Source: a virus
Strand: one strand, 5' to 3'
Length of the DNA: 31,310 nt
Virus record (IMG/VR): IMGVR_UViG_3300027791_003652
Coordinates: 1 to 31,310 of that record
The notes beneath the pieces were generated by a model. That model was not told the DNA's origin and did not search any database. It saw nothing but the letters and a program-made list of their open reading frames with translations. The translations under genes and the position numbers were made by a program. This document shows, piece after piece, positions 2,886 to 31,269 of the stretch. Numbering within the stretch: position 1 is the first letter of the stretch; each line of letters starts with the position of its first letter.

Positions 2886-2912
2886 TGAAATATTTAATCT
2901 ATACGGTATAAT
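2885..2912 (+). promoter_or_regulatory. Near-consensus sigma70-like promoter of folE2
   Basis: TTGAAA (2885-2890), a 16-nt spacer and a perfect TATAAT (2907-2912). The folE2 ATG begins 6 nt later at 2919, so transcription should start at or next to the initiation codon. No Shine-Dalgarno sequence is present. The -35 box overlaps the start of the divergent minus-strand gene and the spacer overlaps that gene's late box, so the two promoters physically compete. This suggests early host-polymerase expression of folE2. Confidence 0.7.
2891..2896 (-). promoter_or_regulatory. T4-type late promoter box, N5-ATG
   Basis: TAAATA on the minus strand, preceded by AT, followed by 5 nt (TTTCA) and the ATG of the 1716-2885 gene. 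It matches the T4 late-promoter core and the spacing used at other genes in the window. Confidence 0.55.
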
Positions 2913-2918
2913 AGATAT

Positions 2919-3971
2919 ATGTCCGATAAAAATAATAATTATGAGTGGTTAGGTGATGATGTAAGTGAAAGTGAACTTACTGGTGAAAAAGATATTATTG
3001 CAAAAGAATTAATGGGTGAAGAATATAGTAAGGGTTATTTTCCACCTATTAGAGTTTATGATAATAAGGTTAAAGCTGATAGAAAATATATTTCATCGCT
3101 ACCTGACCTACAGAATGGACCATCAAGTTTAATTCAAGGGGCTGCAGTACCTATTCAACAAGTAGGTATACATAATTTTAAGTTACCTCTAACATATAAG
3201 AAGAGAGATGGTAAGACCATTAATCTTGAAACTAGTGTAACTGGTAGTGTTAGTTTAGAAGCTCATAAGAAAGGCATTAATATGTCTCGTATAATGAGAA
3301 GTTTTTATGACCATAAGGATGATATTTTTAGTATTAATAATATTAAAGATGTATTAGAGTCGTATAGAGAGAATCTTAAATGCTTCGACTCAAGAATTAT
3401 GCTTAAAATTTCATATCCTATTAAGCAAACTAGTTTACGTAGTGGGTTAGAAGGTTATCAATATTATGATGTAGTATTTGAAGGTGATGTAACTAAGGAT
3501 GGAGAATTTAAGAAGTATATTCACTTTGACTTTGTATATTCATCTGCATGTCCTTGTAGCTTTGAATTGAGTGAGCATGCTGAGAAGTATCGTAACCGTG
3601 CTACTGTACCTCATAGTCAACGAAGTGTTGCAAGAGTTAGTGTTAAGTTTGACGATATGTTATGGGTAGAAGATATACAAGAGTTATGCTTAGCTGCTTT
3701 ACAAACTGAGACTCAAGTTATGGTTAAGAGAGAAGATGAGCAAGCGTTTGCTGAACTAAATGGTTCTAATCTAAAGTTTGTTGAAGATGCGGTACGTTTA
3801 ATGTATGAAAAGCTTAGTAGTGAGTCTCGTATTAAAGACTTTAAGATTGTAGCATCTCATAATGAAAGTCTACATAGTCATAATGCTATATCAGTTATAG
3901 TTAAAGGTGTTGAAGGAGGATTTTCAGCAGGTGTTGCAAGAGATGTATTTGAAACTACTGGTTTAAGATAA
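2919..3971 (+). CDS. folE2: GTP cyclohydrolase FolE2 (type IB)
   Basis: GTP cyclohydrolase IB (FolE2/MptA family, COG1469), which converts GTP to 7,8-dihydroneopterin triphosphate, the shared precursor of folate and 7-deazaguanines. Family marks are the GIHNFKLPL segment (83-91), KGINMSR (118-124), the active-site S-A-C211-P-C213-S motif, PHSQRS (231-236) and the C-terminal N-E316-S-L-H319-S-H321 metal/substrate motif. At 350 aa it is longer than typical bacterial forms because of an acidic N-terminal extension of about 70 residues. The ATG at 2919 fits the promoter 6 nt upstream. With the queD-like gene it provides the first two steps toward 6-carboxytetrahydropterin. The later genes (queE, queC, queF or transglycosylase) are not in the window. 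Confidence 0.9.
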   Translation: MSDKNNNYEWLGDDVSESELTGEKDIIAKELMGEEYSKGYFPPIRVYDNKVKADRKYISSLPDLQNGPSSLIQGAAVPIQQVGIHNFKLPLTYKKRDGKTINLETSVTGSVSLEAHKKGINMSRIMRSFYDHKDDIFSINNIKDVLESYRENLKCFDSRIMLKISYPIKQTSLRSGLEGYQYYDVVFEGDVTKDGEFKKYIHFDFVYSSACPCSFELSEHAEKYRNRATVPHSQRSVARVSVKFDDMLWVEDIQELCLAALQTETQVMVKREDEQAFAELNGSNLKFVEDAVRLMYEKLSSESRIKDFKIVASHNESLHSHNAISVIVKGVEGGFSAGVARDVFETTGLR

Positions 3972-4403
3972 TTAATCTAAATTACCTTCTTTACTTACAT
4001 CGATCACACCACCAAGTTGTTCAATAAACTCTTTACCTACGAGTATCTTATATTCATTATCTTCTCTTGAACCTATAGAGAATTTAGTATTAGAATAGGT
4101 CTTACCACCGATTTCAATATCAAATTCAACAACAGGACGGTTATCAATAGTAGGCTCTCCATCTGGACCTGAACCTACATTTATATCGATATATTCTTTA
4201 ATAGGTTTAGTTAAGGTTTTATTATTAACTGTTTCAAAAGTTACCTGTTCTCTATTGTCTTGAATATTAATACCATGCAAGACATTATAAGCCCCGTTGC
4301 CGCTATCAATCTTAGCTTCAACGGGACCCAATTCTTTAAATGTTATAGTTTCTATCAAACCGAGAGGTTTATTAGACTCAAAGAATTTTTTAAAAGTAAT
4401 CAC
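3972..4403 (-). CDS. Retropepsin-like (RimK-associated/Zn_protease-type) domain protein
   Basis: Resembles the small retropepsin-like family (PF05618, annotated as ATP-dependent zinc protease). The pattern is G-L-I-E-x-I-T-F near the start, then A-K-I-D-S-G with the putative catalytic Asp in D-S-G (about residues 32-35), a V-L-H-G-I-x-I segment, and a late I-L-V-G-K-E-F segment. The N-terminus MITFKKFFES closely resembles the capsid-targeting peptide of T4 internal proteins, with a possible cleavage after F-F-E (residue 9). The start is taken as GTG at 4403: the nearby ATG is followed directly by a stop, and the TAAATA box lies exactly 5 nt upstream of the GTG. It abuts folE2 end to end. Protease activity is inferred, and peptide cleavage by a packaged enzyme is only a possibility. 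Confidence 0.6.
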   Translation of the reverse strand: MITFKKFFESNKPLGLIETITFKELGPVEAKIDSGNGAYNVLHGINIQDNREQVTFETVNNKTLTKPIKEYIDINVGSGPDGEPTIDNRPVVEFDIEIGGKTYSNTKFSIGSREDNEYKILVGKEFIEQLGGVIDVSKEGNLD

Positions 4404-4408
4404 ATTAT

Positions 4409-4414
4409 TATTTA
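4409..4414 (-). promoter_or_regulatory. Late box fused to the stop codon of the H1-like gene
   Basis: TAAATA, whose first three bases are the TAA stop of the 4412-4600 gene, followed by 5 nt (ATAAT) and the GTG start of the retropepsin-like gene. Confidence 0.6.
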
Positions 4415-4600
4415 TGCTTTATCAGCATTCTTTACATCTTGTATATCTTTTCTAATAGCTTTTGTTAGTTTAGCTATTTCTAATAATGCTTTTCTTGCTC
4501 TTGTACCTGCAGCAGCAACACCCTTTTCATTAAATTTTTGAATTTCTTCATCAAAAGAATTAAACTGCTCAGTTATATTTTTAATATTTTCTTCATTCAT
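4412..4600 (-). CDS. Histone H1-like (Hc1-type) DNA-binding protein, 62 aa
   Basis: Short, helical, Lys/Ala-rich protein whose centre and C-terminus (F-N-E-K-G, A-A-G-T-R-A-R-K-A-L-L-E-I, K-A-I-R-K-D-I-Q) follow the pattern of bacterial histone H1-like Hc1 proteins (PF07432), where the A-G-T-R-x-R-K core is characteristic. Such proteins bind DNA non-specifically and compact it. The N-terminus is acidic and has I-T-E at residues 9-11, a possible prohead-protease site. If so, it would be packaged with the phage DNA. It starts after a TAAATA box (N7), and its own stop codon forms the next late box. The family call is from the motif only; the length matches the family. Confidence 0.7.
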   Translation of the reverse strand: MNEENIKNITEQFNSFDEEIQKFNEKGVAAAGTRARKALLEIAKLTKAIRKDIQDVKNADKA

Positions 4601-4607
4601 AATAATC

Positions 4608-4613
4608 TATTTA
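4608..4613 (-). promoter_or_regulatory. Late box fused to the cassette's last stop codon
   Basis: TAAATA whose first three bases are the TAA stop of the 4611-5360 gene, followed by 7 nt (GATTATT) and the ATG of the H1-like gene. It marks the downstream edge of the glycan/radical SAM cassette. Confidence 0.5.
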
Positions 4614-5360
4614 ACCATTATAGTTAAAAATACCATACCACGAGTTTCTATAATCTCCTAAAAAACCATTTTTATACAAATAACATATATCGTAATCGGG
4701 ATTATAATTTGAAACAATATCAATTTCATAATCTTTATATAAGTTGGTAATTTCATCTAAAATAGGTATAAATACTTTTCTATTAATATTTAAGTTTGCT
4801 TTATTTAAAGTAAAGGAATTTTTTTCTTGAAATATTTTATAAAAATAACTTTTTTTAATATCATCAGTTATAATTTTTTTATGTTTTTTGGTACCACAAA
4901 AAGCCAAATTAGTTACGATTGTTATTTTTTTAAAGTTATTATTCTTTATTTTTTTATCTATAAGTTTTTTATAATCAAAAAATATATTATTTTTATATGT
5001 AATTTCTTCACCATACCAATTAATAACATGGTCTCCTAATCTAAAATAAATTACTAATTCATCATCATCTGGTAGTATTAAACTATTTAAATTATTTTTA
5101 ATATATTTATCAATTGATATTTTTAATAAAGGGCCTGAATAACCTGGTTCATATAATTTTTTTAATATATAAGGGTGTCTAAAATATATACCTAAAATAG
5201 TGTTTTTGTATTTTCCATCATACGCTAAATTTTTTCTATTTATTTTAGTATATGGGTCATAAGTTTTATTAAAATCACCAATCAATATATTAGCTACATT
5301 ATAATCTAACATATCTTCAGTAATTTTAATTTTATTATATAATTCTTCGCTTTTTTTCAT
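4611..5360 (-). CDS. Putative fucosyltransferase-like glycosyltransferase
   Basis: Probable glycosyltransferase related to the gene at 7193-8035. Both share an acidic turn followed by E-L-V-[IV]-[YH]-[FL]-R-[LC]-G-D-H and then a K-I-[TV]-I-V-T segment. Here the motif is Y-F-R-L-G-D-H at residues 105-111. An H-x-R-x-G-D motif is known from GT11-type alpha-1,2-fucosyltransferases and relatives, where the Arg contacts the nucleotide sugar; the first position is Tyr here. The start is set at the ATG at 5360, which overlaps the upstream TGA (ATGA), rather than the TTG at 5369. It is the last gene of the cassette and is very rich in Asn, Lys, Ile and Tyr, as expected from AT-rich DNA. Donor and acceptor are unknown. 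Confidence 0.5.
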   Translation of the reverse strand: MKKSEELYNKIKITEDMLDYNVANILIGDFNKTYDPYTKINRKNLAYDGKYKNTILGIYFRHPYILKKLYEPGYSGPLLKISIDKYIKNNLNSLILPDDDELVIYFRLGDHVINWYGEEITYKNNIFFDYKKLIDKKIKNNNFKKITIVTNLAFCGTKKHKKIITDDIKKSYFYKIFQEKNSFTLNKANLNINRKVFIPILDEITNLYKDYEIDIVSNYNPDYDICYLYKNGFLGDYRNSWYGIFNYNG

Positions 5361-5989
5361 TTTACCCAATTATTATCACATAGATGTATACCATAAACAT
5401 CATCATAATATTTTAAATTTTTTTTAGTTATTATTTTATCACTAATAACATCCACATCATCACCAACTGTAAAGTTTTTTGTTAAAAATGCAGGACCTGC
5501 AACTTCCATATTATCATATACATTATTATATTTCTTATTATTACCATTAGTATGTAATTTTTTAATAAGTTTTTCTAAAAATTTATTTTTTGGAGATGAA
5601 TACATAATCATAGGGTCTATATATTTTTCATATTTTTTTACTGAAAAATAATCATTTATAGCTTTTTGAGAAAAAAGACAACACTTACCTTTAGATAATA
5701 ATTTAGTAATATCCTTTTTAATTATAATATCTAAATCTAAATACAAACCACCATATTCATAAAGATAAAAATATCTAACTGCATCAACCCTATTAATATA
5801 ATGATTGTAATTTTTATATATTTTATAAAAGGATGGGTATTTATTTTTTATAAAAAAATCATTTTCATCATCTGTCCATAGTTTATAGTTCCAATCTTTA
5901 AAAAATTTTTTATTTTGTATTTTTATTTTTAAATATTTTGCTGGTAATATTTCAGTAGACCAACTTTGATGAATTGTTTTATATATCAT
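5357..5989 (-). CDS. GT32-type glycosyltransferase with DXD motif
   Basis: Glycosyltransferase of the sugar-binding-region/DXD family (PF04488, GT32; Och1- and capsule-transferase-like). The N-terminal I-Y-K-T-I-H-Q-S-W (2-10) is the typical family start, and R67-V-D-A-V-R-Y...Y-G-G-L-Y-L-D85-L-D87 is the signature with the metal/nucleotide-binding DXD. A helical C-terminal half contains a P-x-F-L-T-K segment. At 210 residues it is a compact, complete-looking version. It overlaps the deacetylase upstream by 11 bp and the next gene by an ATGA. It probably transfers a hexose in a surface glycan; the sugar is not predictable. Confidence 0.85.
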   Translation of the reverse strand: MIYKTIHQSWSTEILPAKYLKIKIQNKKFFKDWNYKLWTDDENDFFIKNKYPSFYKIYKNYNHYINRVDAVRYFYLYEYGGLYLDLDIIIKKDITKLLSKGKCCLFSQKAINDYFSVKKYEKYIDPMIMYSSPKNKFLEKLIKKLHTNGNNKKYNNVYDNMEVAGPAFLTKNFTVGDDVDVISDKIITKKNLKYYDDVYGIHLCDNNWVK

Positions 5990-6509
5990 TTATATCAATC
6001 CTTTCAGCACTGTAAAAATTTTTAAAACCTTTTAAGTTTAATATTTCTTTATAAAGAGGGGTTTCATAATTATATGGAAAACAGAAATTATCAGGTATAA
6101 AATCTAAATTTTTTATAAATTCATAATGCATTTGTTTATTATCTTCAATAATACATTCAACACAATCAGCTGTCTTCAATTTATGGTAATGGCTATGGCA
6201 ACCGATATAACAATTTGGTTTATTAAAAATTTCTTTTATTTGAGACCATTTCATATAATTAGTAAAATTACCTTTAAAAGCTTTTTTGTGAGCATTATAA
6301 GAAGTTATATAAGTATTATCTTGTTTTGTAGTTTCTTCACAAACTATACCACTACTAATAAAAAAATATTTATCGGTATTAATTTTTAACAACTCATCTA
6401 AAAATAGATATTGAGTATATAAACCATCATCGAATGTTAAAATATAATCTTCTAAATTTAAGTTTAAAAAATCTTCTTTAAACTCATGGATCATTAAAAT
6501 AGGTTTCAT
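5979..6509 (-). CDS. NodB-type polysaccharide deacetylase
   Basis: Carbohydrate esterase family 4 (NodB homology) deacetylase. Motif 1 is L-T-F-D-D-G (24-29), with the catalytic base and a metal-binding Asp. Motif 2 is H105-S-H-Y-H109, supplying two metal His ligands. A C-F-P-Y-N-Y motif follows (about 144-149), matching motif 3 with Asn where Arg/Gly is more usual. At 176 residues it is shorter than many CE4 enzymes and ends soon after motif 3, so motifs 4-5 are missing or diverged. There is no signal peptide, so it should act in the cytoplasm on a lipid- or nucleotide-linked sugar. It starts on the base after the PIG-L gene's stop. Family call firm; substrate unknown. Confidence 0.82.
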   Translation of the reverse strand: MKPILMIHEFKEDFLNLNLEDYILTFDDGLYTQYLFLDELLKINTDKYFFISSGIVCEETTKQDNTYITSYNAHKKAFKGNFTNYMKWSQIKEIFNKPNCYIGCHSHYHKLKTADCVECIIEDNKQMHYEFIKNLDFIPDNFCFPYNYETPLYKEILNLKGFKNFYSAERIDINDI

Positions 6510-7157
6510 TTAAATATCTTTTTTATATATACAAATAAATGGTTCTGCTTTTTTATTACCTGATATACTACCAAAATAATTATCTCTATATTTAATAAAA
6601 TTTACATTCAAAGGATCAGGTAAGTTATTAATTTCTGTTTTATATCTTTTTATACATTTATATTTCTTTTTTGAGTGTTTAGATATATCTATAAAAGTAT
6701 TATAATTTACATTTTTAAATGACCATTCCGTACTACCTGGTATCGGAAATTCATATAAAGCTTCAATTGTACTATTATTTCTCGGTCTACAGCTTACTTT
6801 TACTGCTTTTGATAGGGTATAATGGTCAATATGTACATCGTTTTCATGGTTTGTAAAAACTATTTGTGGTTTAACTTTATTAATGATTTCATTTAAGTAG
6901 GAAGTAATTTTTATATGTGGTATGGTATCTAAACTAACATCATCAAAATTATTAATATATAATTTTTTTATACCTAAAGTTTTTATATTTTTATGTAAAG
7001 CTTTTATTCTTTTATTTTCTACATATTCTTTCCCAGGTTTATTACCTTTGCATAATATACATAGAGTTATATCATTATTTTTAGATAACTTACTGATAGT
7101 ACCACCCATACCTAACTCTGCATCATCTGGGTGTGCTGCAATTATTAAAATATTCAT
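6510..7157 (-). CDS. PIG-L (LmbE-like) N-acetylsugar deacetylase
   Basis: PIG-L/LmbE family zinc deacetylase, which removes acetyl groups from GlcNAc-type substrates. The N-terminal A-A-H9-P-D-D12-A-E-L-G-M-G-G-T motif and H104-E-N-D-V-H-I-D-H112 carry the expected zinc ligands and catalytic Asp. The length of 215 aa is normal. It lies directly before the NodB-type deacetylase, so two unrelated deacetylases are coupled. A TAAATA box on the minus strand lies 17 nt upstream of the ATG, within the palindrome at 7174-7187, so this gene probably begins a separate transcript. Cytoplasmic. Confidence 0.88.
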   Translation of the reverse strand: MNILIIAAHPDDAELGMGGTISKLSKNNDITLCILCKGNKPGKEYVENKRIKALHKNIKTLGIKKLYINNFDDVSLDTIPHIKITSYLNEIINKVKPQIVFTNHENDVHIDHYTLSKAVKVSCRPRNNSTIEALYEFPIPGSTEWSFKNVNYNTFIDISKHSKKKYKCIKRYKTEINNLPDPLNVNFIKYRDNYFGSISGNKKAEPFICIYKKDI

Positions 7158-7173
7158 TATTGAATAGTAATTG

Positions 7174-7187
7174 TATTTAATTAAATA
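7174..7187. promoter_or_regulatory. Palindromic double late promoter TATTTAATTAAATA
   Basis: A perfect 14-bp palindrome in the 35-bp gap between two divergent genes, presenting a TAAATA box on each strand. The plus-strand box (7182-7187) is followed by exactly 5 nt and the ATG at 7193. The minus-strand box is 17 nt from the ATG at 7157. It could drive both transcripts. Confidence 0.6.
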
Positions 7188-7192
7188 ACTGA

Positions 7193-8035
7193 ATGAGTCA
7201 AATTAAGTATGATATAATAAAATTTAAAAATTTTAATATTATATTATCACCTCATAATAGAATATATTGTTTGGGAGATATATTATATCAAATATTTGAT
7301 TATAAATATAGAATAAGAAAAATTTTAAACGACCCTGTATATAATAAAAGTTTAATTTTTAAATACTTAAATAAAATACATGCAAACGGGCTTAAACTTG
7401 AAAATGGTAGAAACATAAATTTTGGAATAGAAAAAAGACCCAATTTAAGTAAAAATCAAAAAGAAGCTTTAAAATGTTCTATTTATGATTTTTTAAAAGA
7501 AAATAATTTAAATTTTTATCGTGATAAAAATGAACTTGTAGTACATTTAAGATGTGGTGACCATATAGTTGATTCATCTGATGAAGTAATTACTTTTTTA
7601 AAAAAACATAAAAATATAACTTCAATAAAAATCGTAACATCTATTGTTTTTCTAGGTAAAGGTTACGTAGATGTAATACGTAAAATGTGTAAAATTAAAA
7701 AATATTCAAGATTTTTTAATAGTAAAAAATATAATTTATTAAATGATGACTTTACAAAAACGGAAATAAAAGTTAATAATTGTATAAACTATTTAAAATA
7801 TTTTTTTAATAAAATTGAAAAATACAAAAAAATAGATATTAATATATCTTCAAACGAAACGGATATTGATTTTATTAATTTAGTAATGGCTGTTAATTTA
7901 ATTGGGTCCGGAGATTCTGGCTTTTCGAAAGCTGCTATAGAAATGAATACATATTTAAATAATAATACAAATACGGTTTTAATGGATGTCGGTAAGCTTA
8001 CATTGAACCGCGACGAAAAAATATATTTTAAATGA
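7193..8035 (+). CDS. Putative fucosyltransferase-like glycosyltransferase (inverted gene)
   Basis: Paralog of the 4611-5360 protein. It carries E-L-V-V-H118-L-R120-C-G-D123-H-I followed by an S-I-K-I-V-T-S segment, and a C-terminal G-S-G-D-S-G-F-S-K-A-A segment (about residues 239-249) like the nucleotide-sugar-binding C-terminal end of GT11-like or GT-B enzymes. The N-terminal residues Y-C-L-G-D-I resemble the G-x-G-N/D loop at the start of fucosyltransferases. It is the only plus-strand gene in the 17.6-kb cassette, has its own late box at the N5 distance, and ends 10 bp from the converging epimerase gene. The specific sugar is unknown; membership of a fucosyltransferase-like fold is inferred from one motif. 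Confidence 0.5.
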   Translation: MSQIKYDIIKFKNFNIILSPHNRIYCLGDILYQIFDYKYRIRKILNDPVYNKSLIFKYLNKIHANGLKLENGRNINFGIEKRPNLSKNQKEALKCSIYDFLKENNLNFYRDKNELVVHLRCGDHIVDSSDEVITFLKKHKNITSIKIVTSIVFLGKGYVDVIRKMCKIKKYSRFFNSKKYNLLNDDFTKTEIKVNNCINYLKYFFNKIEKYKKIDINISSNETDIDFINLVMAVNLIGSGDSGFSKAAIEMNTYLNNNTNTVLMDVGKLTLNRDEKIYFK

Positions 8036-8045
8036 TATTAAATTT

Positions 8046-8633
8046 TTATGTATATAATTTTTTAATATCCGATATTGTTTTACAATCGAGATTATGGTAA
8101 TCATATATGATGTTTCTATCATTTATAACACTCAAAGTTTTATCAATAAAATTATTTAAAGTTAAAAAATAAATTTTATTGTTCATATCTTTTTCTGGAA
8201 TTAAATCTAATCTAATTTTTTTCATTAATCCCTTTTTCCTTGTTTTATCATACACTCTAGGTATTCTTAAAATAATCCAATTATCATAATTATCTTGAAT
8301 ATATTTTTCCATTAATAACTTACTGTAACAATAAATGTTATTCGGAGCTTCAACCCCTTTTGTACTGGCAAAAATAAATTTAGCATTCGATTGTTTTGCA
8401 AGTTGTAACATATTAATTGTACCATTTATAATTACATCTACAACTCTATTACTATCTTTAAAATCAAAATCATCACTTGGCCCAGCAAAATGAAATATTT
8501 TATTTATATGATTATACTCTTTATATAATAAAACATCACCGTAATCATAATTTATACCTTTTATTTGGTTTTTTAAGTTACTTGCTAAAAACCCCTTTTC
8601 AGCTCCTGTAAATATATTAATCGATTTTGTCAT
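8046..8633 (-). CDS. NAD-dependent epimerase/dehydratase (extended SDR)
   Basis: Short extended-type SDR, probably a nucleotide-sugar epimerase, dehydratase or reductase. A glycine-rich dinucleotide loop T-G10-A-E-K-G14-F-L-A-S sits at the N-terminus, followed by an I-F-H-F-A-G segment, the catalytic S90/T91 and the Y101-x-x-x-K105 pair. The start is set at the ATG at 8633, because the open frame to 8702 adds 23 residues with no family match and lies inside the upstream gene. Even so, there is a 17-bp overlap with the radical SAM gene. At 195 residues it is much shorter than typical epimerases (300+), and the substrate-binding C-terminal part is reduced. Confidence 0.8.
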   Translation of the reverse strand: MTKSINIFTGAEKGFLASNLKNQIKGINYDYGDVLLYKEYNHINKIFHFAGPSDDFDFKDSNRVVDVIINGTINMLQLAKQSNAKFIFASTKGVEAPNNIYCYSKLLMEKYIQDNYDNWIILRIPRVYDKTRKKGLMKKIRLDLIPEKDMNNKIYFLTLNNFIDKTLSVINDRNIIYDYHNLDCKTISDIKKLYT

Positions 8634-9669
8634 ATTTAGGATTAGTTTTAGAGAATAAAAACATGGTATCACATGAACACTGAGTAAGGGGACATTTAAC
8701 ACATTTAGTTAGATGTTTTTTATTAAGTTTTGTTATAGGTACAACTTCATTAGTACATGAATTTTTTATAGTACCGTCCATATTAATAGTGTACATTAAT
8801 GATTTACAACTCCAACCTTTAAATCTATTAAGCTTATATTTATTAATGTCAGCTTCTGATAATATATATTGTCTTTCTTCATCATCAATATATTTGATAT
8901 TGGTTGTTATTTCATTAGCATGTTCATTTAAATATAATGTTGCATTTTTAATACCTACACCTTTACCGTAATTTAATTTTTCCTGCTCCACCGGGTTAAT
9001 GTAATCATGAAAATATTTCCAAAAATCATTTGTATAATTTGGGTCCCAACCCCCTACCGGGCCGGTACCAACACTTTGCAAAAAGTTAAGACTAATAAAC
9101 ACATTATTTTTTTTAAATTTATCAATAAGATCTTTTGTTTGCTTCCAATGTTTTTGATCATCTGGTAGATTTATATTTGAAAATATACTTATATATTCTA
9201 AATTATTATTTAAATCTATAACTTTTTGAATATATTTATTTCCACAATATTCAGGGTGATGAGATGCTTCTATAGTCAGTTTACTATTTTCTTTAACATC
9301 TAACTTTTTATAAAAATCGTAAGGTTTTGCTAAATTAGTAATTAAATCAACTTGTATACAATATTTATCCTTAACTGCTTCTGAGATAATATTTTCAATA
9401 TCCGGGTGTAAAGTCGGTTCACCACCAAGAATTTCAATTGCATATGGAGTTTTAACCATTAACTTTAAAAATTTAATAGTGTTTTTCCATGCTTTAATAA
9501 AATGAGGTTTTTTCTTAAATGTGTTAAGATTAAAATTCATTGCACTGCAATAACTGCACCTATACTGACAAATATCAATAAGATTCCATGAAAACGTAAT
9601 TAAATTATAATCTTTATCACCGGCTTCTTTAACATTATTAATATTTAAATTATCTAAATTTTTTACCAT
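8617..9669 (-). CDS. Radical SAM enzyme A, C-terminal Cys cluster
   Basis: Radical SAM protein: C34-x3-C38-x2-C41 binds the [4Fe-4S] cluster that cleaves SAM, and L-G-G-E-P-T (81-86) binds the SAM amino group. The C-terminal part carries G-W-S-C288, C305 and C323-x2-C326-P-L-T-Q-C331-S-C333-D, suggesting a SPASM/twitch-like domain with an auxiliary cluster. It is a close paralog of the gene at 19322-20239: both begin A-G-x-K-D-Y-N-L-x-T-F-S-W-x-L-I-D-x-C, and both have the C-P-L-T-Q-C-x-C-D tail. It overlaps the transketolase C-half by 7 bp. The reaction is unknown; given the neighbours a sugar or glycan precursor is the likeliest substrate, which is inference. Confidence 0.88.
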   Translation of the reverse strand: MVKNLDNLNINNVKEAGDKDYNLITFSWNLIDICQYRCSYCSAMNFNLNTFKKKPHFIKAWKNTIKFLKLMVKTPYAIEILGGEPTLHPDIENIISEAVKDKYCIQVDLITNLAKPYDFYKKLDVKENSKLTIEASHHPEYCGNKYIQKVIDLNNNLEYISIFSNINLPDDQKHWKQTKDLIDKFKKNNVFISLNFLQSVGTGPVGGWDPNYTNDFWKYFHDYINPVEQEKLNYGKGVGIKNATLYLNEHANEITTNIKYIDDEERQYILSEADINKYKLNRFKGWSCKSLMYTINMDGTIKNSCTNEVVPITKLNKKHLTKCVKCPLTQCSCDTMFLFSKTNPKYDKID

Positions 9670-10139
9670 TTACAGTTATCCCAACCTAATCTTATAAAAT
9701 TTGTTTTATTATCTTTAATAGATTCTGTTAAAGTGTTAAGAAATTCTGAACGTGTTGTAGGTTCATGACAATTAATATTGAGAGCATTCATTAGTTTATA
9801 ATCATCATCAGGTAAATGACCTATACCACATCTATTATAACAACCGTTTGCACCGGCATTAACTAACGTTACATTTTTACCAAAATTAACCACACTAAAT
9901 TTTAATTGTTCATAAGCACGTTGGTAAACAAAACCTGCTACCCCGTAAATAATTACCTTTTTACCTTGACTAGCTAACCCTCCAGCAACGTTTACCATAT
10001 TAGTTTCACCAATACCAAAATTTAAACATCGTTCAGGGTATTTAGTTTTAAATTTTTCGAAGCTCCACATATCAGCATGTAAAAAATATAGATCTGGGTT
10101 GTTGTATTTTGATAAAAATATATCTAATGTATTTCTCAT
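9663..10139 (-). CDS. Transketolase-like protein, pyrimidine-binding half
   Basis: Matches the central (pyrimidine-binding) domain of transketolase/DXS-type thiamine diphosphate enzymes. F-G-I-G-E45-x-N-M-V-x-x-A-x-G-L-A (41-56) contains the Glu that activates the cofactor, followed by A-x-E-Q-L and G-I-G-H-L-P-D-D-D. The start is the ATG at 10139, 1 nt after the upstream stop; the longer frame to 10193 would add 18 residues overlapping the U32-like gene. The 158-residue protein ends right after this domain, so the third, C-terminal transketolase domain is absent. It should pair with the N-terminal half at 11012-11704 in an alpha2beta2-type enzyme moving or adding a two-carbon unit. Role inferred. 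Confidence 0.8.
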   Translation of the reverse strand: MRNTLDIFLSKYNNPDLYFLHADMWSFEKFKTKYPERCLNFGIGETNMVNVAGGLASQGKKVIIYGVAGFVYQRAYEQLKFSVVNFGKNVTLVNAGANGCYNRCGIGHLPDDDYKLMNALNINCHEPTTRSEFLNTLTESIKDNKTNFIRLGWDNCKW

Positions 10140-10140
10140 T

Positions 10141-11022
10141 TTATTTATAAACGTCTTTAAGATAAATATTAAGTTCACTTGAAAAATCTTCAAATGTCAT
10201 TTCACGACCAGTAATTTTGAAGTTATTTACACCTTGTTTCATAAGTTGCTTTATTTGTGATATTTTTAAATCCATACCATAAGAATCTCCTAATTTTTCA
10301 ATAACCTTTTTTTGACCAATATCTGGATCAAATCCTTCCGGTTTTTTATATGTAGATCTTTCAGATAACCAACACTCTTCTACTTCATACATCTTCTTTT
10401 TACCGGCATCAACCCACGGATTTTTATAAAGTATATTTTGTTTAGCTATTTCTTCAAAATGTATACCGTAATACGGGCAATTATAAATACATGTATCATT
10501 AAGCATAATTTCATATTTATTTTGGTCTAAATCTATAAATCTTTTATCAAATATATGTTCGCATCTGGGTACAATATAATCATATTGTTTTTCAAGTTGT
10601 TTATATAAATTAAAATCATCATCTGTCATTGGAACGTTTATCTTACCAAAGCTTGTAATTGATCTTGTATGCTTATATAAGGGATATTTTTCTTTGATAT
10701 AATTAAGTAATGTTTCGTTTGCAGTAATTATAACATTACCCTCTCTATGAAATTTTTTAAGTAATTTATTACCTATTTTATCGGTAATATCAATAACTGG
10801 ATTGGTAAATGTAAGTGCAATTGAAATATTATTACGGTAATAAAAATTTATAACTTTATCATCATAAGATATATCTCTATTTATACGACCACCATTCCAT
10901 GGGCAATTATTAATACCATCATAAACCGTTATATCAAAATTTTTAATTATATCTTTATGTTTAAAAAAATATAATCTTAGTTCTTTACTTTTACTAAATG
11001 CGCCTGCTATATTAAATCTCAT
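10141..11022 (-). CDS. Peptidase U32-like TIM-barrel protein (putative)
   Basis: Probably a U32-family-like (UbiU/UbiV-like) barrel protein. The N-terminal M-R-F-N-I-A start, an early N-C-P-W-N-G-G-R segment, the middle T-N-P and S-I-T-S-F-G segments, and late conserved Cys (C-I-Y-N-C-P-Y-Y-G-I-H, then E-C-W) recall environmental U32-like proteins whose Cys bind an iron-sulfur cluster. The C-terminal Q-G-V-N-N-F-K-I-T-G-R-E segment fits the end of that barrel. It lies between the two transketolase halves, overlaps the N-half by 11 bp and ends 1 bp before the C-half, so all three are probably made together. The ATG at 11022 is preferred over the in-frame GTG at 11025. Family call moderate, reaction unknown. 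Confidence 0.5.
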   Translation of the reverse strand: MRFNIAGAFSKSKELRLYFFKHKDIIKNFDITVYDGINNCPWNGGRINRDISYDDKVINFYYRNNISIALTFTNPVIDITDKIGNKLLKKFHREGNVIITANETLLNYIKEKYPLYKHTRSITSFGKINVPMTDDDFNLYKQLEKQYDYIVPRCEHIFDKRFIDLDQNKYEIMLNDTCIYNCPYYGIHFEEIAKQNILYKNPWVDAGKKKMYEVEECWLSERSTYKKPEGFDPDIGQKKVIEKLGDSYGMDLKISQIKQLMKQGVNNFKITGREMTFEDFSSELNIYLKDVYK

Positions 11023-11704
11023 CACTATCGATAGTTTTATAATGCCACTTTACAGGGTCATCTTCCATATATTTTACACCTTTACCCTTTTTTGTTAAAA
11101 AATTAATTAATATAGGTTTTTTAATTTTATCTAAATTACTAAGCTTTTTTAAAATAGTATTTTTACAGTGACCATTTACTGTTATTACATGCCAATTATA
11201 ATTTTGGGCTAACTTTATAACAGGTTCAACAGTTAAAACATTATTTGTATTACCTGTTACCTGATAATTGTTATTATCAATAGTTAATAAAATATTATTA
11301 ATACAATTATGACCGATATATTGTATAGCTTCTAAGGTACTACCCATTTGCAAAGTCGCGTCGGTTATATTTACCCAAACTCTTTTACCTTTATTTGATA
11401 ATGCTATACCGGAACCGACCCCTAATGCGTTACCCATTGTTTCCTCCCCATAATCAACAAAATCGATTTCATTATGCTTAACCCCTACAGAAAGATTATT
11501 TATATCTTTCAATAAACCCATTTTTTTCCATAATATATAATATGTTTGAGAGCCAAACGGTTTACCTAATACTATTTTATCTCTATATGGTACTATTATT
11601 TTGTTTTCAAATAAAAATTCTACATAGGTCGACATTGATAAAGCTGATGGTATATGGGTCAACCCTTTATCCCGTGAATAAGTAACTATTTCATTACTAA
11701 TCAT
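11012..11704 (-). CDS. Transketolase-like protein, thiamine-diphosphate-binding N-half
   Basis: N-terminal half of a transketolase-type enzyme. It has H17 in L-T-H-I-P-S-A-L-S, the diphosphate/metal site T114-D115-A-T-L-Q-M-G followed by A-I-Q-Y-I-G and T-I-D-N-N-N-Y (about 141-147), and a final T-K-K-G-K-G-x(11)-W-H-Y segment. The canonical G-D-G of this site is T-D-A here: the metal-binding Asp and the later Asn are kept, but both glycines are gone, so activity is likely but not certain. At 230 residues it is slightly short for a half-enzyme. It starts 1 bp after the upstream gene. It acts with the 9663-10139 protein; substrates unknown. Confidence 0.83.
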   Translation of the reverse strand: MISNEIVTYSRDKGLTHIPSALSMSTYVEFLFENKIIVPYRDKIVLGKPFGSQTYYILWKKMGLLKDINNLSVGVKHNEIDFVDYGEETMGNALGVGSGIALSNKGKRVWVNITDATLQMGSTLEAIQYIGHNCINNILLTIDNNNYQVTGNTNNVLTVEPVIKLAQNYNWHVITVNGHCKNTILKKLSNLDKIKKPILINFLTKKGKGVKYMEDDPVKWHYKTIDSDEI

Positions 11705-11705
11705 T

Positions 11706-12341
11706 TTATTTTTTTTTGTTTAAATAAAGAAACTTAATTTTTTCGTCATCGGTAAGCTCTTCTTTAATTCTTTTTTGTTCTAACTTTGTAGTATTAAAGA
11801 ATTTTTCTTTCCATCTTGGAGCTTTAACCTTTTCTTTAAAAAACTTAAACACATGGTCGATTACACTATTAGATACATCCTCTGTTTGATGATTTCGAGC
11901 TAAATAAAATAATAACGCTAATTTTTTAAATGAATCATTAGAATATTTACTCGGTTCAAAGGAATGTATATTACTTTCAAAAACTATATTTGTTAAAATT
12001 ATATTATTTACAGTCGCATGATGCCAGTGGTTTATAAACGCAAATTGCTCTTTAGTAAATTTATATCTACCATCTGATTTAATAAATGATTTCACCCAAT
12101 CTGGTGATAATAATCTAGTATGTTCATATGTTTCATAAGATTTTGAAATAATATTTCTTTTTAAATAATTTCCAAGTTCTTCTGACATTGCATCATTTAA
12201 TTTTAAATAAAAATTAAACGTTTTAATTATATTTAAAATACCTTTTTCTTCCGGAAAGTATTCAATTAAAAAATTATCTACCATCTTTAATAGAAGTAAT
12301 GATAGATCACTACCGGATATATTTTCAATACAAGTTGACAT
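11706..12341 (-). CDS. Hypothetical helical protein, 211 aa
   Basis: Not recognised. Predicted mostly helical and cytoplasmic. Visible features are an acidic amphipathic N-terminus, a conserved-looking W-H-H-A-T-V-N-N segment near residues 110-117, another R-N-H-Q-T-E segment near 148-153 and a Lys-rich C-terminus. The His-rich segments could bind a metal, but no known motif fits. It is the first gene after a 54-bp gap and precedes the transketolase half by 1 bp, so it may start a sub-operon; a near-match late box (TAAATT, then 5 nt) lies before its ATG. Possibly a partner or scaffold of the transketolase complex, a guess from position. Confidence 0.6.
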   Translation of the reverse strand: MSTCIENISGSDLSLLLLKMVDNFLIEYFPEEKGILNIIKTFNFYLKLNDAMSEELGNYLKRNIISKSYETYEHTRLLSPDWVKSFIKSDGRYKFTKEQFAFINHWHHATVNNIILTNIVFESNIHSFEPSKYSNDSFKKLALLFYLARNHQTEDVSNSVIDHVFKFFKEKVKAPRWKEKFFNTTKLEQKRIKEELTDDEKIKFLYLNKKK

Positions 12342-12346
12342 ATATT

Positions 12347-12352
12347 AATTTA
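12347..12352 (-). promoter_or_regulatory. Imperfect late box before the 11706-12341 gene
   Basis: TAAATT (one mismatch to TAAATA) on the minus strand, then AATAT and the ATG at 12341, the same N5 spacing as the virion genes. It could be an internal promoter of the cassette. The 54-bp gap 12342-12395 holds nothing else clear. Confidence 0.3.
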
Positions 12353-12395
12353 ATATTTTTTTTTGAAAAAACAAGCATCACATTTTTAATAATAT

Positions 12396-13343
12396 TCATT
12401 TAAATTTTTCTACATAGAATTCACCTTTACAGCAATCCCATTTACATTTAGTATAGTTATTAACTTTAAAATTGAATATTTTTTCATTTTTTAATAAATT
12501 ACCAGAAGGTAGTGTTAATGTATTTGCACAACACATAAAATAATTACCATCTCCGTTTATTATAATATATTTTTTACCTACGGAACATGTCCAGCCTTTA
12601 AATGATATACCCTCACTATAAAAATCATTAGTATTATATATTTTTACATCACCGTTAGAATGAGTTACTTCATAATTTTCATGAAACATATGTTCTTTAT
12701 ATTCTTCCATTAAATCTTTATAATAATTAGTTGAATTATCATAATCAATAAACCCGTGTATTAATTCCACTCTTTTAGAATAATCTTTATTTAAAAGTTT
12801 TTTACTATTTTTTATAATGTTATCTACTTGTGTTTTATCATGCTCAAGCATAATATCAATTTTACCTAAAACATTATTTTCATGTAGTATATCTATTTTT
12901 TTTAATAACTCATCAAAATCTTTTACAAATTTATCATGGTATGATACATTAATTTCTAATTTATTATGCTTAAATCTATCTATTAAAGACTTTATATATT
13001 TTTCACCTACCGATAAATTAGTTTGAAATTCTACTATTATATTTTTATTAAAAGAAAAAATATATTCAATAATGTCTCTGCATTTAGGGTGTGTTGTAGG
13101 TTCACCACCATGAAAATAAATTCTATAATTTTTATGTTTAATGTTTTTTAAAGCTATAGATATCGTTTTTTTAATATCTTCAAAATTATAATGATGACCA
13201 TACTTCCAGTGACAATAACTGCAATCATAATTACAATAGTCTGTAATTCTTAATTGAAATTCATAAAAATCTTCACCTTCAAAATCATGAATACCTTGAA
13301 GACCGTTAGCTTTTAAAATTTTATAATCTTTAGGGTATATCAT
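12396..13343 (-). CDS. Radical SAM enzyme B
   Basis: Radical SAM protein with C37-x3-C41-x2-C44 (followed by H-W) and H-G-G-E-P-T (78-83). The C-terminal region has K-G-W-T-C253-S-V-G-K-K, then F-M-C271-C272-A-N and K-C300-K-W-D-C304-C305, a SPASM-like set of Cys likely to hold an auxiliary cluster. Its closest relatives here are enzymes D (14166-15110) and E (15676-16692), which share the C-K-x2-K-C-type ending. A 35-bp gap separates it from enzyme C upstream; the gap holds no clear promoter. 315 residues, complete. Substrate unknown. Confidence 0.88.
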   Translation of the reverse strand: MIYPKDYKILKANGLQGIHDFEGEDFYEFQLRITDYCNYDCSYCHWKYGHHYNFEDIKKTISIALKNIKHKNYRIYFHGGEPTTHPKCRDIIEYIFSFNKNIIVEFQTNLSVGEKYIKSLIDRFKHNKLEINVSYHDKFVKDFDELLKKIDILHENNVLGKIDIMLEHDKTQVDNIIKNSKKLLNKDYSKRVELIHGFIDYDNSTNYYKDLMEEYKEHMFHENYEVTHSNGDVKIYNTNDFYSEGISFKGWTCSVGKKYIIINGDGNYFMCCANTLTLPSGNLLKNEKIFNFKVNNYTKCKWDCCKGEFYVEKFK

Positions 13344-13378
13344 ACATTAATACTAATTATATATGTGTTCCCACTTTT

Positions 13379-14161: not shown

Positions 14162-14165
14162 AATA

Positions 14166-15110: not shown

Positions 15111-15676
15111 ACGTCTTTATTATCAAATTCAATACGTTGTATATCGAGAGGATCTATACCAAAATTATTATAGTTTATAAAGAAAAATTGATTAGTATTT
15201 CGATTAATGATAAGATCATTAACCCTTAAATTTGTAACGACATTAATGTAAAACTTTATATTTTCAGGGTAATCTATATGTTTTTTAAGTTCTTTTAATA
15301 TTAAATCATTATCAATTTTTTGTTGTTTATCATGTAATTCTTTTACCCTTAAAATGTATGGGTGATTTTTATTTAATTCCTTTTCTTTTTTAAAAAAAAA
15401 GTTAATAAGTTTTGACTTAGAAGTGCTAAAATCATATTCACTATAAAATTTAAATTTACATGTTGTGTTGTGTGGGAATTCAAAATATAAATAATCCTGA
15501 GTTATTGAATGATATTTTAGTAAAAAATTAGCTTTTGTATGATTATAATAATTTTCAAAATATGCTTTTTTGTAATCATACTTACCTTGTAATAATTTAC
15601 ATTTAAGAAATAGTTTACCTTTACGATAAAAAATAGTATTATTACCTATTTTATATATATCTATATCTAATTTCAT
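15101..15676 (-). CDS. Hypothetical protein between radical SAM genes, 191 aa
   Basis: Not recognised. A Lys/Tyr/Phe/Asn-rich soluble protein. The N-terminal third looks like beta strands (alternating hydrophobic and charged residues to about residue 85), the middle is helical with a charged E-x-K-E-L segment, and the C-terminus V-N-D-L-I-I-N-R...F-F-F-I-N-Y-N-N-F-G-I-D is faintly like the D-x3-N-I-I...I-D segment of small-molecule kinases. The similarity is too weak to call. It is coupled on both sides to radical SAM genes (10-bp overlap with D, 1-bp overlap with E), so it could be a kinase-like or accessory protein for their substrate. Confidence 0.6.
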   Translation of the reverse strand: MKLDIDIYKIGNNTIFYRKGKLFLKCKLLQGKYDYKKAYFENYYNHTKANFLLKYHSITQDYLYFEFPHNTTCKFKFYSEYDFSTSKSKLINFFFKKEKELNKNHPYILRVKELHDKQQKIDNDLILKELKKHIDYPENIKFYINVVTNLRVNDLIINRNTNQFFFINYNNFGIDPLDIQRIEFDNKDVWI

Positions 15677-20239: not shown

Positions 20240-21194
20240 TTCGTATTATATCTACAATTTTATCGTTATTTTTTAAGATAATACTATTAAAATCGTTTTC
20301 TATATCTAATTTTCTATATTTTAACCCAGTATCTACGTCTAAATAGTTTTTATCTATATTATGGTATATAATATCTTTATTATAGTACTTACACTCGGCT
20401 ATAAATCTTGGACTACAGTCAAAACAACCTAATTCTTGTTTAGTCACCGAATAAGTTGGGGTATATATGTAAGTATCAAACTTTTCAAATATATTATCTA
20501 AAGGCATAGCAGGGAAAGTTACATTTTTTATATTTTTAAATTGTTCCTTGTATAATTCTGGCTGATTAGTTAAAATTATATAATTTTTAAACTTATACTG
20601 CATAACTACATCAAGTAAATAATTACTACACAGTTTTCTACAGTTTGTAGTTACATATAACAGTGCAGTTTCAGTTTTTACCTTTTTAATATTATTATAA
20701 ATGTTAAACTTTATTTTTTTCTTATAATCTATAGCTATTTCATTATCTTTATCATTATAAACCCTTTGATCTTGTAGTAAAGTTATATTTTTATAAGGTA
20801 AATTATAGTGGTAATCTTTATTAGAACATCTAAATGAAAATATATTATGAAAAGATAAAACTATACCGTCCCTTAACGAGGTTCTAGTAAACCCTCCATC
20901 GACAAATAATATATTTTTACCTGATACAAACTTAGGCCGATTACAAAAAATAGTATTACTTTTAATTTTATTAATTATATCATTTTTTATATTATATTTT
21001 GATTTAATTGCTTTTTCTATTGTATTCCAATCCATATCTTCGCATATTAATATACCAATTTTCATATACCGGCTTAATACCAAGTAATATTCTAATATTT
21101 CATATAAATGACCAGATATTCCGTGATTATTATCATTATTCCATGTCATTGATAAAAATAAATCATAACTTTTATCTAATTTTAAAAATCTCAT
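20223..21194 (-). CDS. Putative GT-B-like glycosyltransferase
   Basis: Probable glycosyltransferase, not assigned to a family. The N-terminal half has a G-I-S-G-H-L-Y-E-I-L-E-Y-Y segment (about 25-37) like the acceptor-side start of GT-B enzymes. The C-terminal half has D-T-Y-I-Y-T-P-T, then D-C-S-P-R-F-I-A-E-C-K-Y-Y-N-K-D-I-I-Y, the kind of conserved loop-helix that holds the sugar nucleotide in GT-B donors. There are no membrane segments. It overlaps radical SAM I by ATGA and H by 17 bp. An alternative is a non-catalytic sugar-binding protein. 323 residues. Confidence 0.5.
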   Translation of the reverse strand: MRFLKLDKSYDLFLSMTWNNDNNHGISGHLYEILEYYLVLSRYMKIGILICEDMDWNTIEKAIKSKYNIKNDIINKIKSNTIFCNRPKFVSGKNILFVDGGFTRTSLRDGIVLSFHNIFSFRCSNKDYHYNLPYKNITLLQDQRVYNDKDNEIAIDYKKKIKFNIYNNIKKVKTETALLYVTTNCRKLCSNYLLDVVMQYKFKNYIILTNQPELYKEQFKNIKNVTFPAMPLDNIFEKFDTYIYTPTYSVTKQELGCFDCSPRFIAECKYYNKDIIYHNIDKNYLDVDTGLKYRKLDIENDFNSIILKNNDKIVDIIRNEISK

Positions 21195-22219
21195 GAGTAA
21201 AAATCTTTTCTATAATGATTAACATCTCGTATTTTATCACCAGGTTCGGGATAAACTTCCATATCTAATTGTTTTTCAATACCATCACAAATATAAAAAT
21301 ATTTACACTTAAAACAGGCCAAAGATTTCTTATAATCAGTGAGTCTATCATGTCTAGCTTTAGCATATCCCAATTCTATTTTTTGATTATGTGTATATGT
21401 TTCGGTTACATCAATATCATAGTCATATATTTCTTTATTCCAATCGTATACATCATACACATGTTGATATTGGTTACATACATATTTTTCATAACCTTTC
21501 ATAAAGCAATAAGGTGTATATCTAACGTTAATATATTTTACATCATTAACTATTAAATCTATACATCTTTTTATATTATCGGTTAGTTTATTATAATCAT
21601 CTATAGGTTCAAACGTTTTATTATCATCCCAGTAGTTTAAAGTAAGAAAATTTACTTGAAAAGGTTTAATTTTTTTAATAATATCAGCATAAGCTACTAA
21701 CCCTGAGTAGTTTTTCTGATAAACTGTACAGTTTATTCTAACTCGTATATCATGTTTATTGCAAAGGTCTATTGCTTTATTAATTTTCTTCCAACCATTC
21801 TTTCTACCTACTATATCATCATGAACTTCTTCATTATAACCATGTAAACTAAATAAAATTTCCTTTAACCCATGTTTTTTTGATTTTAATAAAAATTTTT
21901 CATTAGAAAATACTGAACCATTACTTAAACAGCTTATATTTTTAAATTTACCATTACAATAATCTAATATTTTAAACCAATCTTTATGTATGGAACTTTC
22001 TCCACCTGATAAGTCTACTTCATCTATACCATAAGAGTGTAAAATATCTATACGCTCTTTAATAGTATCATATGATGTTTTCTGATCCAGTTTATCTAGA
22101 TAATAGCAAAACTCACAGTGATAATTACAATGAAACCCGGTATCTAACTTTGCTCTATTGTTTCTTTTAGTGGTATAATCAACATTAAATCTATTGATAC
22201 TAATTTTATTAATATCCAT
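21191..22219 (-). CDS. Radical SAM enzyme I
   Basis: Radical SAM protein with C31-x3-C35-x2-C38 and D-L-S-G-G-E-S (69-75), closer to classical MoaA/SPASM-type proteins than the G-G-E-P-T group (S-N-G-S after the second strand; F-S-L-H-G-Y in mid-barrel). A C-terminal C302-F-K-C305-K-Y-F-Y-I-C311-D-G segment is a short Cys cluster, less elaborate than in A-H. It is the first gene of the cassette, 12 bp after the stop of a late gene; only a weak TAAAAT lies before its ATG at 22219, so it is probably transcribed from the late promoter of the gene upstream. 342 residues, intact. Confidence 0.88.
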   Translation of the reverse strand: MDINKISINRFNVDYTTKRNNRAKLDTGFHCNYHCEFCYYLDKLDQKTSYDTIKERIDILHSYGIDEVDLSGGESSIHKDWFKILDYCNGKFKNISCLSNGSVFSNEKFLLKSKKHGLKEILFSLHGYNEEVHDDIVGRKNGWKKINKAIDLCNKHDIRVRINCTVYQKNYSGLVAYADIIKKIKPFQVNFLTLNYWDDNKTFEPIDDYNKLTDNIKRCIDLIVNDVKYINVRYTPYCFMKGYEKYVCNQYQHVYDVYDWNKEIYDYDIDVTETYTHNQKIELGYAKARHDRLTDYKKSLACFKCKYFYICDGIEKQLDMEVYPEPGDKIRDVNHYRKDFYS

Positions 22220-23109: not shown

Positions 23110-23115
23110 TATTTA
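23110..23115 (-). promoter_or_regulatory. Late box fused to stop codon
   Basis: TAAATA whose first three bases are the TAA stop of the 23113-23823 gene, followed by AGTAA and the ATG of the 22232-23104 gene at 23104 (N5). Confidence 0.65.
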
Positions 23116-23828: not shown

Positions 23829-23834
23829 TATTTA
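23829..23834 (-). promoter_or_regulatory. T4-type late box, N5-ATG
   Basis: TAAATA, then ATAGT and the ATG of the FN3-like gene at 23823. It lies 1 nt from the TAA stop of the upstream gene at 23836-23838. Confidence 0.6.
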
Positions 23835-25140: not shown

Positions 25141-25153
25141 TATTTATTAAATA
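25141..25153. promoter_or_regulatory. Overlapping divergent late boxes
   Basis: In the 23-bp gap 25136-25158, a minus-strand TAAATA (25141-25146) and a plus-strand TAAATA (25148-25153) lie back to back. Each is 5 nt from a start codon: the ATG at 25135 on the minus strand and the ATG at 25159 on the plus strand. This supports the start of the plus-strand gene at 25159. Confidence 0.65.
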
Positions 25154-29088: not shown

Positions 29089-29094
29089 TATTTA
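29089..29094 (-). promoter_or_regulatory. T4-type late box, N6-ATG
   Basis: TAAATA (in CTTAAATA) on the minus strand, then TATAAA and the ATG at 29082. The only other gap nearby, 29083-29112, holds nothing else. Confidence 0.5.
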
Positions 29095-29112
29095 AGGTTA
29101 GTGCAATTCAGC

Positions 29113-29985: not shown

Positions 29986-29990
29986 ATTAT

Positions 29991-29996
29991 TATTTA
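29991..29996 (-). promoter_or_regulatory. Late box fused to stop codon
   Basis: TAAATA preceded by GA, whose first three bases are the TAA stop of the 29994-30554 gene; ATAAT and the ATG at 29985 follow (N5). Confidence 0.65.
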
Positions 29997-30554: not shown

Positions 30555-30978
30555 CACTTTTATTATAGTACTGTTCCAAAAACAATTTAGGTGCTTTACC
30601 TATTCTACAGTTTATAATACCATTATAATAATTTTCACTCAATAGAACATCCTTTTCAAACTGCATTTTAGTTTCAAAATATGATAATTCAAATTTACTA
30701 TTGCAAAATTTTAAAATTTTAAAGTTAAATTTATCTAAACCAAGTAAAGAAATATCATTATTGAGGGCATCCGACGAACCGGTATAGGTTTTCCAGTCAC
30801 TTTCAATAAAATCGATCCGTTTACGTTTTTTACCTTTTAATGGTTTACGTTTTATTTTACGTACCATTTGCTTTTTACCGATATATTTTTTATTATTAAT
30901 AGTGTTAATAATTTCATATATAAAACCGAAAGTTCCTTCCGGTATTGGTTTATATACCTCCCATATACCTGTATCCAT
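30544..30978 (-). CDS. GIY-YIG-like putative endonuclease, 144 aa
   Basis: Resembles the GIY-YIG-like proteins of T4-like cyanophages. G18-F-I-Y-E-I (18-23) and K-K-Y-I-G-K-K (30-36) replace the two half-motifs, followed by a basic stretch (R-K-P-L-K-G-K-K-R-K-R), E-S-D-W-K-T-Y-T-G-S-S and F-K-I-L...Y-F-E-T-K, the likely place of the catalytic Glu, then Y-Y-N-G-I-I-N-C-R-I. At 144 residues it lacks a DNA-binding domain. It may be a homing endonuclease remnant or a conserved phage nuclease; it has its own late box at N5, which argues for a late role rather than a mobile intruder. Confidence 0.75.
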   Translation of the reverse strand: MDTGIWEVYKPIPEGTFGFIYEIINTINNKKYIGKKQMVRKIKRKPLKGKKRKRIDFIESDWKTYTGSSDALNNDISLLGLDKFNFKILKFCNSKFELSYFETKMQFEKDVLLSENYYNGIINCRIGKAPKLFLEQYYNKSDDG

Positions 30979-30983
30979 TATGA

Positions 30984-30989
30984 TATTTA
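30984..30989 (-). promoter_or_regulatory. Late box fused to stop codon
   Basis: TAAATA whose first three bases are the TAA stop of the 30987-31256 gene; TCATA and the ATG at 30978 follow (N5). Confidence 0.65.
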
Positions 30990-31256
30990 CTTTTTATTCT
31001 TCGATTTTCTAGTTTTTCTTTTTTTCTTACCTACTTTACCTTTTCTGGAATACATTGCACCTAAAGCTGTCGGTCTTCTAAAATCCCCCGGGGCGTAAGC
31101 ATCAGTACCTGGTGTACCACTGACTGTCGTACCATATCCTGTTGCTGCTGCAGAACCTAGAGCACCTCCACCAACTGTATTTTCATCTTCTTCTGGTGTC
31201 TTTTTCCTTTTAAGGCTTCTTTTAAATGCTTTTTCAAATAAAGTTGTTTTCTTCAT
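30987..31256 (-). CDS. Small basic Gly/Ala-rich protein, 89 aa
   Basis: Not recognised. A basic N-terminus (F-E-K-A-F-K-R-S-L-K-R-K-K, with L-F-E at 6-8), a Gly/Ala/Thr-rich low-complexity middle (about 28-55), and a C-terminal Lys/Arg tail of about 20 residues (G-K-V-G-K-K-K-R-K-T-R-K-S-K). Composition suggests a DNA- or capsid-binding virion protein. It has the best late promoter in the window, TATAAATA, 5 nt upstream. Confidence 0.65.
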   Translation of the reverse strand: MKKTTLFEKAFKRSLKRKKTPEEDENTVGGGALGSAAATGYGTTVSGTPGTDAYAPGDFRRPTALGAMYSRKGKVGKKKRKTRKSKNKK

Positions 31257-31261
31257 AATAG

Positions 31262-31269
31262 TATTTATA
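31262..31269 (-). promoter_or_regulatory. Consensus T4 late promoter TATAAATA
   Basis: Full TATAAATA on the minus strand followed by CTATT and the ATG at 31256. This is the exact T4 late consensus and identifies TAAATA elsewhere in the window as the late-promoter core. The remaining bases to the window edge (31270-31310) hold nothing clear. Confidence 0.75.

Follow-up and report, generated by a model that had tools for sequence, protein, structure and literature searches.

TAAATA boxes phased to start codons point to leaderless mRNAs in a clade of uncultured T4-type phages

The window analysed here is the complete IMG/VR record IMGVR_UViG_3300027791_003652, a viral stretch of 31,310 bases with 26.6% GC, in which the hexamer TAAATA recurs exactly five nucleotides (N5) before predicted start codons. 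We conclude that TAAATA is very probably the core of a T4-type late promoter, dependent on the late sigma factor gp55, which would give leaderless late mRNAs, and that early and middle promoters are phased to start codons in the same way. A sequence-only reading of the window had proposed leaderless late transcription, with an AU-rich translation signal as the alternative. The late-promoter proposal and its geometry are the better supported, through a split of the motif by gene class, -35 elements at genes of the other classes and a spacing spike restricted to ATG and GTG, while independent sequence tests strongly disfavour the translation signal.

Spacing of TAAATA in the window and its relatives

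Ten of the 37 predicted starts in the window, one of them a GTG, carry TAAATA at N5, where 0.065-0.08 would be expected per offset (P ~1e-18). These are the ten sites that had been listed, and the two reported at six and seven nucleotides were likewise recovered, as one N6 and one N7 site (Table 1). The hexamer is frequent in DNA of such low GC content (110 copies, of which 12 stand 5-7 nucleotides before a start), and only its position is therefore informative. The full octamer TATAAATA precedes a single window gene at N5, as had been noticed, and inspection confirmed that no Shine-Dalgarno (SD)-like motif is visible at any of the claimed sites. The open reading frame whose motif-supported start lies at 25159 could also open at 25129, in which case it would overlap the divergent gene.

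The T4-type placement of the window comes from its DUF6267 protein, which also carries a cytidylyltransferase domain and is related to proteins of cyanophages, HTVC008M and Melnitz. Using the DUF6267 and gp18 genes, we fetched long records of relatives comprising 144 loci and 1.8 Mb. A motif scan at genome scale, suggested by the sequence-only reading as a check, found that the spacing pattern persists and grows stronger in the whole genomes of these relatives. TAAATA-N5-ATG occurs in 362 distinct cases, compared with roughly 5-10 at most of the larger spacings, and TATAAATA-N5-ATG in 87. Single genomes hold 54 (G001, 46 of them gene starts), 45 (G002), 30 (G003), 20 (G004), 15 (G007) and 12 (G008) cases over a background of a few per spacing, and G012 has 49 with an open frame. 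Sites at N6-7 are about one third as numerous as those at N5. The box is mostly (A/T)(A/T)TAAATA and seldom the strict TATAAATA, and the -35 region of the late sets of G001 and G002 holds no conserved position.

The N5 peak belongs to this clade and was not seen in Syn9, S-PM2, P-SSM2 or T4; the distance from TATAAATA to ATG peaks at N22-28 in T4, and P-SSM2 has its peak at N20-25. The clade is monophyletic, forming one branch with 100/100 support in both TerL and DNA polymerase trees, apart from the Kyanoviridae members and the T4 used. Far-T4 phages are recognised by where their capsid or portal proteins fall in phylogeny (PMC4360716); the references in our two trees included Kyanoviridae members and T4.

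SD-like motifs (GGAG, GAGG or AGGA within -18 to -5) precede 2-9% of clade genes in the window and seven relatives, about the level of a control region. The share elsewhere is 54% in T4, 46% in Melnitz, 44% in Mosig, 41% in HTVC008M, 34% in C48C1 and 22-25% in cyanophages. We considered a phage ribosomal protein S21 as a modifier of translation and rejected it: the protein is present in HTVC008M, Mosig and Melnitz, and the clade gave no credible match.

Promoter classes and gene function

Among the relatives, the TAAATA motif is found on the virion genes of gp13, gp15, gp18, gp20, gp21 and gp25 and on that of CsgF. Genes of gp55 and of the replication proteins UvsX, gp32, gp61 and gp41 instead carry, in several relatives, a promoter with TTGA and TATAAT, and those of gp43 and RNase H a promoter with AGGAA; TAAATA stands before none of these. 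The PhoH and NrdA genes, which have the late-type TAAATA, are exceptions to the split, and a late site at +57 codons in the gp23 gene of G001 was judged spurious. The gp55 gene itself is absent from the window fragment and present in all relatives checked (G001-G004, G007, G008 and G012).

The gp18 gene provides the clearest start. TAAATA lies 5-7 nucleotides before it in nearly all cases, and in a scan that gave distances to an aligned residue rather than to the ATG itself, a box adjoined it at 48 of the 49 distinct loci; in one clade pair (L203) the distance from box to ATG is 8 nucleotides. In G001, G002, G003 and G012 the start is unambiguous, with a single in-frame start codon before a conserved SPG motif and TAAATA just upstream, and the gp18 gene of Melnitz has an SD site at the corresponding place. 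Separately, at many loci (L200-L252) a AATTGGTATAATTTTT-like stretch recurs upstream of the late box, some 20-45 bases before the gp18 start; it might act as an additional promoter or belong to the 3' end of the gene before.

Divergent gene pairs share the arrangement. Their start codons can be as close as 22-23 nucleotides, with TAAATA-N5 on both strands, as in the window at 25135/25159 (23 nucleotides apart) and in G001 at 119371/119394; the layout of the window pair also occurs at G001 84602/84626.

Other genes have start-phased promoters of their own. A k-mer scan of genes without TAAATA, with starts chosen blind to any motif (the most upstream ATG or GTG), returned TTGA at -34 in seven relatives with TATAAT, or part of it, at -12, and AGGAA at -23 in G001 and G002. 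Bacteroidota-type promoters (TAnnTTTG) had been considered because SD sites are missing, and were rejected since this unbiased scan gave TATAAT and TTGA but not TTTG. The same phasing is seen from the promoter side: in the clade, an ATG or GTG that opens a reading frame follows TTGA-N18/19-TATAAT at N5-7 at 60 of 103 sites, as compared with 3 of 103 in HTVC008M, Melnitz, C48C1, Syn9, S-PM2, P-SSM2 and T4 (Fisher P ~1e-19). For the AGGAA class, 47 of the 61 AGGAA-N6-TATAAT sites in G002 are followed by ATG or GTG at N5-7.

Two observations concern the build of these promoters. The distance from TTGA to TATAAT peaks at 18 (a 16-bp spacer) in G001, G002, G003, G004 and G007 and at 19 (a 17-bp spacer) in HTVC008M, Melnitz, C48C1 and cyanophages, a difference that may reflect the host sigma factor. 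AGGAA-N6-TATAAT is strictly spaced, with 61 copies in G002 and none at most other spacings; it is found in G002 (L077-L086) and G001 (L067-L076), for example upstream of gp43 and RNase H homologues, and may represent a new kind of middle-promoter box, for which no activator was identified, although no MotA homologue was searched for.

In the window, the folE2 and queD promoters had been noted as non-late examples of the TAAATA geometry, at N6 and N5 respectively. Their phasing to the start codon is borne out, but neither carries TAAATA: both are sigma70-type, both stand at N6, and their elements occupy the clade-consensus positions (Table 1).

Table 1. Putative promoter elements at gene starts of the window (Nx, number of nucleotides between box and start codon)
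Feature	Position	Strand	Details
queD sigma70-type promoter	1610..1637	-	GTTGA with TTGA 1634-1637 (-34), CATAAT 1610-1615 (-12), N6 to ATG 1603
folE2 sigma70-type promoter	2885..2912	+	TTGAAA 2885-2890 (-34), TATAAT 2907-2912 (-12), 16-bp spacer, N6 to ATG 2919
TAAATA late promoter core	2891..2896	-	N5 to ATG 2885, gene 1716-2885
TAAATA	4409..4414	-	N5 to GTG 4403; TAA doubles as upstream gene's stop codon
TAAATA	4608..4613	-	N7 to ATG 4600
TAAATA	7182..7187	+	N5 to ATG 7193
TAAATA	23110..23115	-	N5 to ATG 23104; overlaps upstream gene's stop codon (its TAA)
TAAATA	23829..23834	-	N5 to ATG 23823
Two-way late element TATTTATTAAATA	25141..25153	both	minus TAAATA 25141-25146 (N5, ATG 25135); plus TAAATA 25148-25153 (N5, ATG 25159)
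TAAATA	29089..29094	-	N6 to ATG 29082
TAAATA	29991..29996	-	N5 to ATG 29985
TAAATA	30984..30989	-	N5 to ATG 30978, SegE-type GIY-YIG endonuclease gene; overlaps upstream stop (its TAA)
Full TATAAATA	31262..31269	-	N5 to ATG 31256

At three of the tabulated boxes, those before 4403, 23104 and 30978, the end of one gene and the promoter of the next are merged. The products of queD (950-1603) and folE2 (2919-3971) are steps of the 7-deazaguanine (preQ0) pathway, which suggests modified phage DNA or tRNA. Elsewhere in the window, a minus-strand island at 4611-22219 encodes many radical SAM proteins, glycosyltransferases, a PIG-L deacetylase and a sugar epimerase, together with a transketolase divided among at least two genes, and possibly serves sugar or glycan modification. 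Among the relatives, G002 has 23 predicted tRNA genes (L079:10788-18893, L085:11887-12868) and the 180 kb of G001 scanned have none.

Predicted transcript starts and competing explanations

In T4 the late box starts at -13, is 8 bp long and ends at -6 (PMC2988020), so that a box at N5 would place +1 on the A of the ATG. The sigma70 -10 box spans -12 to -7 (PMC2988021), which puts +1 after six further bases and agrees with TATAAT at N6. We infer where exactly transcripts begin, that gp55 binds the box and how ribosomes engage the resulting 5' ends. Late transcription would start on the A of the start codon at N5 sites and 1-2 nucleotides before it at N6-7 sites. Early promoters of the sigma70 type (TTGA at -34, TATAAT at -12) would also give leaderless mRNAs, as would the second, possibly middle, class (AGGAA at -23, TATAAT at -12). 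Translation of a transcript's leading gene would then begin directly at a 5'-terminal AUG or GUG, with no SD site, and downstream, often overlapping genes would be read by coupling or by some other SD-independent initiation.

Initiation at a purine +1 preceded by a pyrimidine predicts T or C before the start codon and a spike for ATG and GTG only. The N5 spike is 458 against a background of 11.1 for ATG and 27 against 2.2 for GTG, and is absent for TTG (3 against 4.9) and CTG (2 against 2.0). The base at -1 is T in 77% and C in 15% of cases (pyrimidine in 92%).

Several points weigh against leaderless late transcription as we describe it. T4 coordinates are transferred, by analogy, to a distant relative, and boxes at N6-7 would carry leaders of 1-2 nucleotides. 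Using HTVC008M queries, we found no blastp match to the clamp gp45 or the co-activator gp33 in G001 and G002, a check in which the clamp loader gp44 was found. Finally, 572 of 936 called genes (~60%) have neither exact motif; many of these overlap their upstream neighbour, although both motifs are also missing from some genes in leading position.

A first alternative grants that the promoters are real but supposes a short leader, with +1 lying 3-5 nucleotides from its predicted place or the used start codon further downstream. The number of N6-7 sites is in its favour, as is the fact that the exact +1 in the clade is deduced rather than observed. It is nonetheless very unlikely: the single in-frame start of gp18 before the SPG motif in four clade genomes leaves the start codon in place, 11 starts deposited for HTVC008M lie at N5, and the pyrimidine at -1 with a purine at +1 fits initiation at the codon itself.

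A second alternative takes TAAATA-N5 as an AU-rich translation-initiation signal in leadered mRNAs without SD sites, as in Bacteroidota, with the promoters further upstream. The region is A/T-rich, and in a clade without SD sites some SD-independent initiation must operate. Genes of the other classes, however, hold a different hexamer at the matching -10 positions together with a -35 element, for which a translation signal would provide no reason. The motif divides by gene class and shows no spike before TTG or CTG, and the base at -3 is A in 48% and T in 45% of cases, without a Kozak-like A bias. The motif also occurs on 1 of 258 overlapping genes as compared with 97 of 232 divergent genes, a contrast that counts as no more than support, since coding constraint by itself depletes TAAATA where genes overlap. 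Taken with these tests, such a signal is highly improbable. That chance, base composition or overlap with stop codons in A/T-rich DNA creates the spacing, as the abundance of TAAATA and the several boxes whose TAA ends the previous gene might suggest, is refuted by the counts, with a single-base spike 40 times background that also stands before divergent genes and is absent from P-SSM2, S-PM2, Syn9 and T4.

Leaderless initiation remains the reading we favour. We think it likely that this deep T4-type clade transcribes its early, middle and late genes from three promoter types all phased to start codons, making the majority of its primary mRNAs leaderless, and that SD-directed initiation has been lost altogether.

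Comparison with known systems and implications

The clade shares with the T4 late system of gp55, gp33 and gp45 (PMC2988020) a TATAAATA-type box that lacks a -35 element and stands at late structural genes; the relatives also encode gp55, and we noticed no phage RNA polymerase. It departs from T4 in its distance to the start codon and its lack of SD sites. In work on bacteria, leaderless genes are taken to be marked by a -10 box some 12 bp upstream of the start codon and by the lack of an SD site (PMC3160421), and the clade, with TATAAT at -12 and TAAATA at -11 to -6, resembles such TA-led genes; those, however, are a minority in cellular genomes and use sigma70 boxes, whereas here phages combine sigma70-type with gp55-type boxes. 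The AGGAA class resembles the MotA-dependent middle promoters of T4 (PMC2988021), in which a second box at a fixed distance from TATAAT replaces the -35 element, but AGGAA lies at -23, six bases before TATAAT, and the MotA box TGCTTTA centred at -30 was not encountered. We rejected phage AR9 as a precedent, its leaders being 26-491 nucleotides long (PMC5312081).

HTVC008M, a cultured Pelagibacter phage, has the late half of the pattern only. Eleven of its 142 deposited starts that we checked, including those of gp2, gp4, gp25, gp48 and csgF, have TAAATA at N5, and gp2 and gp4 share one two-way element. Unlike in the clade, its sigma70-type promoters are not phased to starts (0 of 17) and SD-like motifs are common. 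A survey of pelagimyophages was unsuccessful in predicting late promoters (PMC7029224), and the boxes may have escaped detection there because they lie at the start codon.

Scans of GTDB genomes gave no host: DUF6267 returned no relative, and gp18 a single 28% match in a Lachnospiraceae metagenome-assembled genome. Compared by TerL, all isolates listed share ~33-38% identity. The first case of a leaderless phage mRNA was found in lambda (cited in PMC3160421). Our full-text searches, which covered few subscription journals and do not prove novelty, met no account of late mRNAs without leaders in T4-type phages or pelagiphages. Leaderless phage mRNAs have so far been single cases, and the literature searched contained no T4-type clade that would be leaderless in every temporal class. 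The finding falls within two known kinds, T4-type late promoters and leaderless genes, and is broader than the sequence-only reading had proposed, as it would take in all promoter classes of a phage clade.

These widespread, uncultured T4-like phages of water seemingly do without the usual bacterial ribosome-binding leader. If this is true, the ribosomes of their host would initiate readily on a 5'-terminal AUG, which raises the question of how translation is initiated in that host. In HTVC008M, which is in culture, predicted leaderless late genes can be compared with SD-led early genes within one infection, and start-phased boxes would make it simple to delimit transcription units and to assign start codons among common phages not yet cultured.

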